Shown piece after piece: positions 10,567 through 30,702 of a DNA stretch of 46,805 nt. Numbering within the stretch: position 1 is the stretch's first letter; the number at the start of each line of letters is the position of its first letter. Origin of the DNA: Methylococcales bacterium (GTDB taxonomy: Bacteria; Pseudomonadota; Gammaproteobacteria; Methylococcales; Methylomonadaceae); assembly GCA_003584895.1 (NCBI GenBank), contig QVQF01000117.1, positions 1 to 46,805 on the forward strand. Reading direction: 5' to 3'. A program made the position numbers and the translations under genes. The notes beneath the pieces are model-generated. The model ran no database searches. It had not been told where the DNA came from and saw only the letters and a program-made list of their open reading frames with translations.

Positions 10567-11298
10567 TTAATTCGTAGCTCTCTTAACACGCATACTATAA
10601 ACAACAAAGCCCATCAATATCATGGCAAGTATCATAGACGAGCCAACAGTACCAAAACCAACACCGCCCTTTTCAATAGGTTTTGTCAGTAAATCACCAA
10701 AAGTCGCGCCAAAGGGACGTGTCAGTATAAAGGCCAGCCAGAACAACAGGATCTGATTAAGCTTGCCTAGATATGATGCAAGAGCAATTAATGCAATAAC
10801 GCCACCCACAAGCAGCGCGCCACCTAAAAATCCTAAACCAGAATCATCCGCCAAAAAATCACCTAAAGCCGTACCCAATGTATTTGAAAACAAAATAGCG
10901 ACCCAATAGAAAAGCTCAGCTTTAATAGTGTTAATATTGCTAACAGATAATGTTTTTTCATTGAGTCGCCAAACAGCCAATACGATTAACAAACCAGACA
11001 CCAAGATCAATGAGCCTTTAGCATAGCCCAGACCTAGAGTTCTATCCATATAATCAGACAATGTAGTACCCGCCGTACTGGTGGTAAGAATGACGGACCA
11101 ACAAAGCACCGGATGAAACGTGTTTACACAAAGCTGAATGACCAGTGTGACCAAGAATAGACTGAGCAAGATGATAGAACTGATGGCATAACCGATGCTC
11201 ATGGTCATAGACAAAAGATCACCTGCCGTTTCTCCTAAGGTAGTTGCACAAATCTTCATAATCCAAAAGTTAAGCGTAACTTGCGCGACTTTATTCAT
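10567..11298 (-). CDS. COG4705-type integral membrane protein with four internal repeats
   Basis: 243-aa inner-membrane protein made of four repeats of about 60 residues, each with a polar small-residue motif before a helix: TTLGETAGDLL, TTLSDYMDR, NTLGTALGDFLAD and PFGATFGDLLTK, mostly followed by a (L/I/V)GY/GF and another hydrophobic segment. About eight transmembrane helices are expected. This matches uncharacterised COG4705 membrane proteins; the repeated acidic G(D/E) motif within the membrane suggests a transporter-like pore or ion site, but no substrate is known. The start ATG at 11298 has GGGAG 8 nt upstream. The next gene of this run (11331-11741) lies 32 bp upstream and is also duplicated. 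Confidence 0.75.
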   Translation of the reverse strand: MNKVAQVTLNFWIMKICATTLGETAGDLLSMTMSIGYAISSIILLSLFLVTLVIQLCVNTFHPVLCWSVILTTSTAGTTLSDYMDRTLGLGYAKGSLILVSGLLIVLAVWRLNEKTLSVSNINTIKAELFYWVAILFSNTLGTALGDFLADDSGLGFLGGALLVGGVIALIALASYLGKLNQILLFWLAFILTRPFGATFGDLLTKPIEKGGVGFGTVGSSMILAMILMGFVVYSMRVKRATN

Positions 11299-11330
11299 GG
11301 TTTATGCTCCCATAACGCCTGTTTAGGGTC

Positions 11331-11741
11331 TTATAAATCGGATCTGACAACACTGACATATTTACTATAGGTTTCATAGCAAATAAACCATAGCGAGTAA
11401 ACCGTAATTCGTCCCCAGAAATCAACAAACACAAGGGTATCCGCTGTATTACTGATCTTGTCAAAATAAGCCAACAAAAGAAACACAGGGATATTAAGAC
11501 TAATCAGCGATAAAATCAGCCATTTTAAAAGCAAGGTGTTTGCTACATATTTTATGTAGATAGCAAAGCCAATAAACCATAACGAGTACACAGTAAAGCG
11601 CCCCCAAAAATCAATAAATACAGCTGATTTTGGGTCTGTACTCAGCACATGAAAATACGCCATCACTAAAAACAGTAAGGTATTAATTACGACTAAAGAA
11701 GACAGAAAATACCTTAATAGTTTTTTATGCTGTAAGTTCAT
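11331..11741 (-). CDS. Four-helix membrane protein with tandem internal duplication
   Basis: 136 aa, family not recognised. Two copies of a module of about 60 residues: a hydrophobic helix ending LLLAYFD or LVMAYFH, then (V/I)F(I/V)DFWGR(F/I)TVYSLWFI and a second helix ending in YxKYV. Four transmembrane segments in two hairpins are predicted. The near-identical DFWGR..TVYSLWFI motifs (about residues 44-57 and 104-117) show a clear duplication. It lies 32 bp before the COG4705-like gene on the same strand, so probable co-transcription. No function can be assigned. Confidence 0.6.
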   Translation of the reverse strand: MNLQHKKLLRYFLSSLVVINTLLFLVMAYFHVLSTDPKSAVFIDFWGRFTVYSLWFIGFAIYIKYVANTLLLKWLILSLISLNIPVFLLLAYFDKISNTADTLVFVDFWGRITVYSLWFICYETYSKYVSVVRSDL

Positions 11742-11898
11742 AGGGATATATAAAAGGCTAAGTAAAATGGCGAGTGGATTAAGCTTTAAGGATATAGCAA
11801 GTAAAAGAACGACCGTTGCCTGTTGGTTATAGGGTTAAATCATCTGCAACCGGAATATAACGTTATTGGACTAGCCTTTCTTGGCTAAGCTAATAGAT

Positions 11899-15882: not shown

Positions 15883-15955
15883 GTAGGTCGGGTTAGCGAT
15901 AGCGTAAGCCGACAACTTCTGAATGTTGGGTTACGCTATCGCTAACCCGACCTAC
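15883..15955. repeat. Long perfect inverted repeat made of two opposed REP units
   Basis: Two perfect 25-bp arms (15883-15907 and 15931-15955) beginning GTAGGTCGGGTTAGCGATAG, with a 23-nt spacer. Each half also reads as its own hairpin (GTCGGGTTA...TAACCCGAC in the right half, slightly degenerate in the left), which is the arrangement of REP doublets (BIME-like). It sits between the sbcB 3' end and the start of thiD, so any transcript crossing it would fold strongly. Confidence 0.85.
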
Positions 15956-26306: not shown

Positions 26307-26338
26307 TACGTCAGGTTACGCTACGCTAACCCGACGTA
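26307..26338. repeat. REP-like hairpin
   Basis: TACGTCAGGTTA (26307-26318) and TAACCCGACGTA (26327-26338) pair with one mismatch over 12 bp, loop 8 nt. Member of the GGGTTA/TAACCC family. Confidence 0.75.
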
Positions 26339-26356
26339 TGAAATTAAAAAATTATT

Positions 26357-28140: not shown

Positions 28141-29799
28141 TTATTTTTTTAAAGCCGCTTGACCTTCAGGATCGGTAATCCAGCACTCTAAGGTAAAGAA
28201 AACATGATCCCATTCTACTGGTTTACTAATGAAATCATTCATACCACAGGCTAGGCAACGCTCACGCTCTTGATCTAGCACATTTCCCGTCATGGCAATA
28301 ATAGGTAACTTGGCAAAACGTGGTTTTATACGAATACGGCGAGTGGCTTCATAACCGTCCATGACTGGCATCTGGCAATCCATGAGCACAGCCGCATAAT
28401 CATTAACAGCCAGCAAGGCTAACGCCTCTACACCATTACCAGCAAGATCAACCTGCATACCCTCATGCTCCATAATATCAGGTATAAATTCCCGTATCAC
28501 CTCATTATCTTCCACCACTAAGACGCGAACATTTCTCAGCCCAGGATAGGTATCTACACGTTTTGTAGCGATTGTAGGTAAAACAGGATTGATGACGGGA
28601 GTACCGACACCTAAAGTGATGATAAAACTAAAACAACTACCCATACCTTCCTGACTTTCAACAGCAATATGACCGCCCATTGCAGAGACTAATTCTTTGC
28701 TGATAGACAAACCCAAGCCTGTACCGCCGTATAACCGAGTCGTTGAATTATCAGCTTGATTGAAAGCCTCAAATAACTCACTTTGCCGCCCAATGCTTAT
28801 ACCGATACCCGTATCAATAATGGCAAAACGTAAACTTGCTTGCCCTGCTTCAAGACTTAGTAATTGCACCTCTAAAGTAATGCTACCTTCTGAGGTAAAT
28901 TTAATAGCATTACTCAATAAGTTTAACAACACCTGTCCCAATCGTAAGGAATCCCCTATTAATGCGGCAGGGATAGCAGGATCTACATTAAAGTTTAACA
29001 TCACGGACTTATCTTTCAATAAAGGAGGCGTGACATCTTGCAAAAATAGCATGACTGAGTTCAACTCAAAATCGCTATGTTCCAAGCTGACTTTACCTTC
29101 CTCTAATTTGGAAAAGTTAAGAACGTCATCCAATATGCCTAACAACCATTTTGCCGAGTTATCAATTTTATTCAGGTAGTTATGCTGCTGTGCGGTTAAA
29201 TCGGTTTGCAGTGTTAAATAACTAATACTCATGATGGCATTAATCGGCGTACGAATCTCATGACTCATATTAGACAAGAAAGCTTTTTTTATTTTTAGTG
29301 CTGATTGTGCCTGCTCAGTAGTCTTTCTAAGCTCTTCTGTACGTTCAGCAACTTGGTCAGCTAACTGCTGTTGCATTTGGGTTGCTTGATTAAGTAATTG
29401 AGTCTTTAAACCTTGATTGCGTCGAATTTCTGCCAAGGCTTTAGGAACGACAACAATCATCACTATAGCAGTGGACAGCGAAATCAGCCCAGTAACAAAC
29501 TTTAGCAAACCTTCCAACCAATAAAGAGGCATCCAGATGGTAATAATTGAAAGTACATGCGTAGTGCCACAAGCAATAATAAAGGCCGCAAACAACAGTA
29601 ACAGATTGTTAAACGGAAAATCTTTATGCTTACGGATAAAATAAAGCATTATCAGCGGAATGGAATAATAGGCCAAGGCAATCAAAGCATCTGAAAACAC
29701 ATGCAACCAAAGTAATGCTGAATTCCATACCAGACAATAACCATGTGGCATCAGGTTTGTAATATCAAAAAGAGGACTGAGCATGTGCATGACATCCAT
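28141..29799 (-). CDS. Hybrid histidine kinase with ethylene-receptor-type membrane sensor
   Basis: 552 aa from ATG 29799; in-frame alternatives are TTG 29835 and ATG 29790, none with a strong ribosome site. Three transmembrane helices (about residues 28-52, 66-88, 97-120) match the ETR1/SynEtr1 ethylene-binding domain. Taking D37 as ETR1 Asp25, the positions for Tyr32, Ile35, Pro36, Ile62, Cys65 and His69 are Y44, I47, P48, I74, C77 and H81, all conserved with identical spacing; Cys and His bind copper(I) in ETR1. A coiled-coil linker (about 125-170) leads to HisKA with SHEIRTPIN (His180), HATPase_c (GDSLRLGQVLLNLLSNAIKF in part, DTGIGI, GGTGLGLSIS) and a C-terminal receiver domain (Asp474, Lys of ISKP). 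No GAF domain. Ligand is inference. Confidence 0.9.
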   Translation of the reverse strand: MDVMHMLSPLFDITNLMPHGYCLVWNSALLWLHVFSDALIALAYYSIPLIMLYFIRKHKDFPFNNLLLLFAAFIIACGTTHVLSIITIWMPLYWLEGLLKFVTGLISLSTAIVMIVVVPKALAEIRRNQGLKTQLLNQATQMQQQLADQVAERTEELRKTTEQAQSALKIKKAFLSNMSHEIRTPINAIMSISYLTLQTDLTAQQHNYLNKIDNSAKWLLGILDDVLNFSKLEEGKVSLEHSDFELNSVMLFLQDVTPPLLKDKSVMLNFNVDPAIPAALIGDSLRLGQVLLNLLSNAIKFTSEGSITLEVQLLSLEAGQASLRFAIIDTGIGISIGRQSELFEAFNQADNSTTRLYGGTGLGLSISKELVSAMGGHIAVESQEGMGSCFSFIITLGVGTPVINPVLPTIATKRVDTYPGLRNVRVLVVEDNEVIREFIPDIMEHEGMQVDLAGNGVEALALLAVNDYAAVLMDCQMPVMDGYEATRRIRIKPRFAKLPIIAMTGNVLDQERERCLACGMNDFISKPVEWDHVFFTLECWITDPEGQAALKK

Positions 29800-29944
29800 G
29801 ATGACTAAAATGACTTTGATTTCTACAGATAACAAGACTGTTGCGCTACGGAGGCAAGTGCTGAAACCATATCACGACCGTGTGCTAATAAGAACTTTAA
29901 TTTTTGTTTTATACTAGACCTTAGCCTGATGTTCTTTCATGCGC

Positions 29945-30016
29945 TGGGTTAGCGATAGCGTAACCCGGTATTTCGAAGCACATACGTCGGGTTACGGCTA
30001 GCGCCCAACCTAGCCC
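29945..30016. repeat. REP-like doublet
   Basis: Unit 1: TGGGTTA (29945-29951) ... TAACCCG (29961-29967). Unit 2, about 18 bp on: GTCGGGTTACGGCTAGCGCC (29986-30005) continuing CAACC, a degenerate copy. The second unit runs into the last codons of the O-methyltransferase gene. Confidence 0.65.
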
Positions 30017-30702
30017 ATTTTCCTACGAGCGACGATTAAACCATCACGCGTTGGGTTAATAAAAGCGTCAAAATCTGGATCATTAAATATCAGGCGATTA
30101 TGTTCACGTATCGCTTCAGTCCATCCGGTAAAAACATCAGAATATTGCTCTACGGCCACTCTACCGCGCCAAAGCACATTATCCGCAATATATAAACCAC
30201 CAGGACGCACTCGATCTTTAGCCAGCATCCAAACTTCAGGATAATCACCCTTATCGACATCGTTATAACAGATATCAAATAAGCCAGTGGTATCTGCAAA
30301 AGCAGCCTGTGCCATCTCAGTACGAAAATCAATACGATCCCATAAACCGGCAGCACTCAAATAGCCCTCAGCTTTCTGTTGATTAAGAAAGTCCGCTTCA
30401 CTGCATATCACTTGCCCGTTTTCGCCTACCGCTTTGGCAAACCAATAAGCCGAATAACCATAACCACTACCAAACTCGAAAACCCGCTGAGCATTGATCA
30501 TTTTGGCCATGGTTTCTAAGAACACACCGGCTAAGCGGCCGACAATAGGGAAATTATTTTTTTGCGCTAAAGCTTCCATTTCCAAGAGTACGGGATGATC
30601 CGTAGGCTCTAGTAAGCCGCGCATATAAGTTTCAATGGCGGGATGCACGGGTGTTAAAACGCTGGGATTAGTAACGGTAGGAGATTTTAGTGGTTTGGTC
30701 AT
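30010..30702 (-). CDS. SAM-dependent O-methyltransferase (family 3)
   Basis: 230-aa class I methyltransferase of the caffeoyl-CoA/catechol O-methyltransferase group (PF01596). Motif I reads VFEFGSGYGYSAYWFAKAV (about residues 67-85), with a supporting acidic residue at the end of the next strand (VICSEAD). FDICYNDVDKGDYPEVW (about 127-143) is the metal-binding/catalytic Asp region, followed by GGLYIADNVLWRGRV (about 157-171), equivalent to the D-N metal ligands. AAGGA precedes ATG 30702. Substrate cannot be inferred. Confidence 0.85.
   Translation of the reverse strand: MTKPLKSPTVTNPSVLTPVHPAIETYMRGLLEPTDHPVLLEMEALAQKNNFPIVGRLAGVFLETMAKMINAQRVFEFGSGYGYSAYWFAKAVGENGQVICSEADFLNQQKAEGYLSAAGLWDRIDFRTEMAQAAFADTTGLFDICYNDVDKGDYPEVWMLAKDRVRPGGLYIADNVLWRGRVAVEQYSDVFTGWTEAIREHNRLIFNDPDFDAFINPTRDGLIVARRKMG

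Follow-up and report, generated by a model that had tools for sequence, protein, structure and literature searches.

The window, a stretch of 46,805 nucleotides (Methylococcales bacterium, GenBank assembly GCA_003584895.1, contig QVQF01000117.1), encodes on its minus strand a hybrid histidine kinase that almost certainly belongs to the ETR1-type ethylene receptors. The best explanation overall, to which we assign a probability of about three in four, is a copper-loaded, ethylene-sensing ETR1-type membrane receptor that feeds a phosphorelay. The protein itself is a further case of the known ETR1-type receptors and not a new type. The part of this work that may be new is that such receptors are over-represented in two sampled methanotroph groups; no report of ethylene receptors in methanotrophs was found among the best matches in the open-licence literature, and subscription papers, for example a 2019 review of non-plant receptors, may list some.

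Gene, domain order and predicted binding site

The open reading frame named in the initial annotation (28141-29835, minus strand) is present in the list of open reading frames, where it comprises 564 aa from TTG 29835. The probable start is ATG 29799, giving a gene at 28141..29799 (minus) and a protein of 552 aa according to the frame list, Pfam, and the starts of relatives, while the starts of the closest relatives suggest ATG 29790 as an alternative. Numbering from ATG 29799, the sensor domain ETR1_N (Pfam PF25487) covers residues 29-123 (29431..29715, minus) with E = 3e-37 and 127 bits against a cut-off of 27, so the match is not due to chance and the family membership first proposed for the protein is borne out. 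The same segment was matched at 131 bits in a search of the own genome, in which the window gene was the sole ETR1_N match of its assembly. The sensor is followed on the same strand by a HisKA domain (residues 171-235, 29095..29289) with the phospho-acceptor H180, an HATPase_c domain (residues 282-395, 28615..28956), and a receiver domain (Response_reg, residues 426-531, 28207..28524) with the phospho-acceptor D474, the domains being assigned by Pfam and the two acceptors by motif position. Like ETR1_N, all three scored above their Pfam cut-offs. A kinase-type output is thus present (HisKA and HATPase_c, with H180), presumably on the cytoplasmic side. Beyond these four, no Pfam domain was matched at E <= 0.001, and since residues 123 to 171 are blank at that threshold, the protein has neither GAF nor PAS and passes from sensor to HisKA, HATPase, and receiver as first described; residues 124-170 are a plausible coiled coil. 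Among the best 25 of 146 NCBIfam families, kinase-core matches alone were obtained, below their cut-offs.

The seven ETR1-type residues are D37, Y44, I47, P48, I74, C77, and H81; Asp and Cys lie 40 positions apart, Cys and His 4. The alignment places them in register with D25, Y32, I35, P36, I62, C65, and H69 of ETR1 and with D35, Y42, I45, P46, I72, C75, and H79 of AzoEtr1 (from the public record), which upholds the residue and spacing assignments of the initial annotation. On the same alignment, C77-x-x-x-H81 (29557..29571, minus) contains the predicted Cu(I) ligands, and K100 (29500..29502, minus) is the counterpart of AzoEtr1 K98 and of ETR1 K91, for which a signalling role has been published (PMC11819568). 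Before helix 1, the alignment of bacterial sensors revealed the motif P18-H-G-x-C22-x-x-W25 (29725..29748, minus), whose P18, H19, G20, C22, and W25 are each kept at 95-98% in 117 aligned sequences, a few duplicate genes included; its His and Cys might form a second metal site or a dimer site. C22 is the only N-terminal cysteine before helix 1, so the plant-type pair is absent, and a single N-terminal cysteine has likewise been reported for cyanobacterial sensors (PMC6682694). A second motif, WxPxY before helix 3 (window residues 89-93), is also near-invariant in the aligned bacterial sensors, and neither motif was seen in the ETR1 sequence used for comparison.

A structure model, which the initial annotation had suggested as a check, gave the expected three long helices: AlphaFold2 with 19 sequences placed them at residues 27-57, 64-89, and 93-129, together with a short one at 3-11, at a mean pLDDT of 83. 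Residues 12-21 were poorly predicted, and a single-sequence model reached a pLDDT of 70. Foldseek found no PDB entry similar to the model at E <= 0.001 (best E 1.2), nor did the sensor sequence match any PDB chain at E <= 1. Many members of the bacterial set could thus serve to obtain the first experimental structure of an ETR1-type sensor.

The window sensor probably binds ethylene. The receptor would work as a dimer, in which C77 and H81 would hold Cu(I) and ethylene or a similar small olefin would bind the copper within the membrane. The change on binding would be relayed by helix 3 and the linking helix to the region around H180 and would alter autophosphorylation, after which the phosphate would pass to D474, to an HPt domain encoded elsewhere, and finally to an unlinked response regulator. 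Four HPt matches were identified in the genome, all in open frames of at least 518 aa, and these four domains are possible partners in the phosphorelay.

Known receptors, close relatives and conservation of the site

A close counterpart with published ethylene binding is AzoEtr1 of Azospirillum brasilense, whose sensor is 46% identical to that of the window over 123 residues, with all seven residues coinciding. The two proteins also have in common the three-helix sensor, the single N-terminal Cys in PHGxC, the lysine K98/K100, and the membrane histidine kinase. The A. brasilense Sp7 plasmid region matched by the window sensor encodes a 525-aa protein that starts with MFGGVEAF and bears D35, C75, H79, and K98; we identify it as AzoEtr1 because its length, residues, and start (compared with the cloning primer) agree with PMC11819568. 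According to that study, residues 1-130 of AzoEtr1, its sensor domain, bind ethylene, the D35A and C75A forms are predicted non-binders, and the protein has a PAS domain, with an operon mentioned and no receiver described, whereas the window protein has a receiver and no PAS. SynEtr1 of Synechocystis and GeiEtr1/2 of Geitlerinema, compared by description (PMC6682694), show the same sensor type with the seven residues and one N-terminal Cys. SynEtr1 senses light too (PMC11819568), and GeiEtr1 contains a GAF domain (PMC6682694), which the window protein lacks. Arabidopsis ETR1 follows the domain order of the window protein (sensor, then kinase core, then receiver) and is 33% identical to its sensor over 110 residues, including the seven residues and the K91 counterpart. 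In contrast, both features expected of plant ETR1/ERS, namely a GAF domain between sensor and kinase and two N-terminal Cys, are missing from the window protein, which has one N-terminal Cys and the bacterial PHGxCxxW motif.

The two closest relatives, from the same genus, are 68% identical to the window protein: that of G150 over 544 residues, with the sensor leading straight to kinase and receiver (read by eye), and that of G148 over 391 residues, with the sensor leading straight to the kinase in a gene that runs off its contig. The G283 relative carries a PAS domain according to Pfam. When 61 full or partial proteins from the order were scanned (of 72 found), HisKA was matched in 41, PAS_9 in 54, GGDEF in 19, EAL in 15, and the receiver in 9. 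Since 54 match PAS_9, at most 7 of the 61 are without any PAS, and the form in which the sensor leads straight to kinase and receiver is therefore a minority one.

The window gene is adjoined by an O-methyltransferase gene on one side and by a gene for a small protein with no Pfam match on the other, and Pfam found no response regulator and no HPt among nine scanned neighbour proteins in the window. At the G150 and G148 loci, the neighbours differ from those of the window as far as the contigs reach, and no other window frame was matched there except the opposite-strand frame of the receptor gene. The idea of a conserved operon from which the function could be read was thus rejected, as over the reach of their contigs the closest relatives have no neighbour in common with the window. 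Across 72 such genes, 106 of the 122 immediate neighbours of at least 100 aa were scanned; among the 25 commonest of 114 families, Response_reg ranked first (13) and the formaldehyde-activating enzyme (2) was the sole C1-metabolism family by name. Linkage to pmo genes was likewise rejected: tblastn at E <= 1e-8, with all frames of at least 95 aa from three AMO loci as queries, gave no match in 70 stretches (1.06 Mb) around such receptor genes. Base composition gave no sign of a recent foreign origin, with a GC content of 0.405 for the gene and 0.410 for the window. Upstream of the receptor gene, at 29935-30020 of the window, lies a palindrome-like repeat of the CGCTAACCC type that looks like an interspersed REP-type element; similar pieces occur at 15890-15948 and 26324-26343.

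Conservation was assessed in 150 sensor domains from the fetched loci, mostly the best-scoring and not a random set, with the window and ETR1 excluded. All seven residues are kept in 129 of these relatives and at least one is lost in 21; by group, all seven are kept in 67/73 (f1), 12/16 (f4), 27/30 (f204), 2/4 (f182), and 21/27 (others). The Cys/His pair is kept in 146/150, the four sensors without it being L101, L148, L149, and L174. The first of these (L101:5975-8395, from G193 of the window's genus) has Phe at the copper Cys and keeps Asp, His, and Lys; from these residues, it is possibly a natural non-binder. Since no row stands closer to the window's group than L101, some close relatives appear to have given up binding.

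The counterparts of Asp25 and Lys91 are both present in 143/150 sensors, and every sensor with the Asp has the Lys. The Asp is missing in seven, five of which also lack the Lys (L135, L154, L145, L050, and L150), with N accompanied by D or E, E by L twice, and L by T at the two positions. This paired loss has a Fisher p of 4e-8 when shared descent is ignored, L135 and L154 being sister rows. A D25-K91 contact has been proposed for ETR1 (PMC11819568), and it gains natural support because Asp and Lys change together. One of the five, L050:3722-4477 from a Chlamydiia MAG, is a divergent ethylene-binding domain in a frame of ~250 aa, with E for D25 and L for K91. Additionally, the counterpart of Pro36 is Ser in L030, L125, L127, L160, L038, L188, and L200, which belong to several groups and keep Cys and His; receptors with this Ser may differ in the ligand that they prefer.

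The same residues bear on whether the protein is mainly a membrane Cu(I) sensor, useful because the main enzyme needs copper, with ethylene binding merely incidental. Copper matters to pMMO. With its Cys/His pair, the window sensor has a predicted Cu(I) site, and the ETR1 sensor binds Cu(I) in the femtomolar range (PMC6586836). However, we consider this explanation improbable, since the five other ethylene-binding residues are also kept, with the full set of seven in most relatives, and no copper family was found among the 25 commonest of the 114 neighbour families. Binding as tight as femtomolar would also fit a cofactor better than a signal.

Host, distribution and a possible link to methane oxidation

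The window's assembly (2.6 Mb, 235 contigs, 96% complete) carries two AMO/pmoA fragments at contig ends, which are possibly parts of one gene, and one of them is followed by a 422-aa frame that we take to be pmoB. Among named genomes, Methylobacter MAGs hold the sensors most closely related to that of the window, and an AMO match was found in 237 of 301 genomes of the order. Because of the pmoA fragments, the frequency of AMO in the order, and the Methylobacter sensors, the host is regarded as a Methylococcales-type methanotroph, in agreement with the initial annotation, which had proposed a methanotroph.

Within the order, ETR1_N exceeded the Pfam cut-off in 152/301 genomes (156 at E <= 0.001) and occurred in 34/50 genera, with up to six matches per genome (G115); of the 33 genomes sampled from the genus of the window, 15 have any such domain. 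In the class-wide sample, the domain was over the cut-off in 12/369 genomes, three of them from the window's order, and in 16/272 genera at E <= 0.001. The two samples weigh genera differently, and the class-sample denominator outside the order, 365, is an upper bound, as not every match-free genome was listed. All positive genomes of the order belong to families f1 and f4, and 24 AMO-bearing genomes listed from families f2, f3, f6, f7, and f8 gave no ETR1_N match.

A second group with a high frequency is the alphaproteobacterial family of G835, in which the domain was over the cut-off in 7/11 AMO-bearing genomes (G947, G948, G950, G1099, G1131, G1177, and G1193) versus 20/138 without an AMO match (Fisher p 0.0006, descent ignored). 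Counted by genus at E <= 0.001, the contrast is weak (2/3 AMO-bearing versus 13/40 others), and in the genus of G835 itself 14/39 genomes carry the domain. In the family of the AMO-bearing G621, by inference of ammonia-oxidiser type, the domain was found in 5/81 genomes, which is not clearly above the class sample (Fisher p 0.15). Bearing AMO is not proof of methanotrophy, because the AMO family includes ammonia and other copper monooxygenases besides pMMO.

The phylogeny was built from 148 sensor domains and 141 columns, with SH-aLRT support and no bootstrap, after four long-branch rows were dropped; many of its forks are unresolved. The window row groups with three rows of its genus (support 99), all four keeping the Cys/His pair, and L101 is their nearest sister (94). 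This group lies in a clade of 47 rows (92). Apart from L147, every row of that clade belongs to the order, by handle or by Methylobacter name, and only L101 is without the pair. A placement among sensors lacking Cys/His had been named at the outset as a possible refutation; the window row instead stands among Cys/His-bearing sensors, with L101 as the one blemish. Sensors of g430 and g493, the genera of the seven AMO-bearing alphaproteobacterial carriers, are situated in another, 18-row clade (99), which also contains G1105, a genome without an AMO match (AMO was tested in part of the clade's g430 genomes), while two divergent extra copies of G948 were placed outside it. Because their sensors sit in different clades, the two methanotroph groups seem to have gained or expanded them separately. 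Within the limits of 141 columns and many unresolved forks, the separate clades also led us to reject the view that the common enrichment arose from genes passed between methanotrophs of the alpha- and the gammaproteobacteria.

Another explanation, without functional meaning for methane oxidation, attributes the enrichment solely to common ancestry and to the expansion of gene families in bacterial families that have many sensor kinases. In its favour, the window's 47-row clade and another of 25 rows have radiated largely or entirely inside f1, the domain is limited to two families of the order, much of the count comes from related genomes and multi-copy genes, and some copies have lost a binding residue. 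We give this explanation appreciable weight, short of an even chance. Against it, the binding residues mostly survive duplication, as the f1 sensors show, and the second AMO-bearing lineage shows the same tendency, mostly in a clade of its own.

The sensor could also bind copper and ethylene-like gases but have as its natural signal ethylene from plants or microbes that informs the cell of its surroundings (rhizosphere, wetland, or competitors). Such a signal would steer biofilm formation or motility, as in Azospirillum and Synechocystis, with no particular connection to methane monooxygenase. The bacterial receptors described to date influence biofilm formation, the colonisation of roots, and phototaxis (PMC11819568 and PMC6682694). 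The GGDEF and EAL domains counted above are outputs usual in attachment control, and the ETR1_N domain occurs in cyanobacteria, Azospirillum, Roseomonas, and others, as well as in 20 of the 138 alphaproteobacterial genomes without an AMO match. Such a cue, which we regard as a reasonable but not the favoured possibility, fails on its own to explain why half of the order's genomes carry the domain versus few in the class sample, although wetland life could.

For the copper-loaded, ethylene-sensing receptor that we prefer, the likeliest role would be an ethylene warning, since methane monooxygenase converts the gas into toxic epoxyethane; metabolism, attachment, or detoxification would be adjusted in response. 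Methanotrophs are inhibited by ethylene and co-oxidise it to epoxyethane, and their best-studied response to it was assigned to a gene cluster whose regulator has a MEDS domain and is a different kind of sensor (PMC11507031). A role tied to monooxygenase poisoning is plausible, if somewhat less probable than its absence. The connection between ethylene and methane monooxygenase drawn in the initial annotation is supported in part by the enrichment in two methanotroph groups, but the patchiness within the genus, the AMO-bearing families lacking the domain, and the lack of pmo linkage speak against a strict link. Together with L101, which has no copper Cys, the weak contrast by alphaproteobacterial genus, the nine scanned neighbours with neither response regulator nor HPt, and the MEDS-type response, these points also count against our best explanation. 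For a proposed methanotroph-specific group of ethylene sensors, the enrichment is likewise offset by the carriers without an AMO match and by the low count in the family of G621. A broader proposal, that aerobic methanotrophs recruited ETR1-type receptors at least two times independently as an ethylene alarm, making ethylene signalling a guild trait and a control point on wetland methane oxidation, is speculative and on balance doubtful. If methanotrophs do sense ethylene in this way, the methane sink could be adjusted by plants and soil microbes through a signal as well as through poisoning.

Two further loci of the receptor family showed particular arrangements. On either side of the G283 receptor gene, frames at L082:8284-8706 and 10990-11751 start with an identical MTGFITPLLTFAGY stretch, as if repeat copies flanked the gene. 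Likewise, at L087:5225-11950 (G115), two genes encoding ethylene-binding domains are situated side by side.
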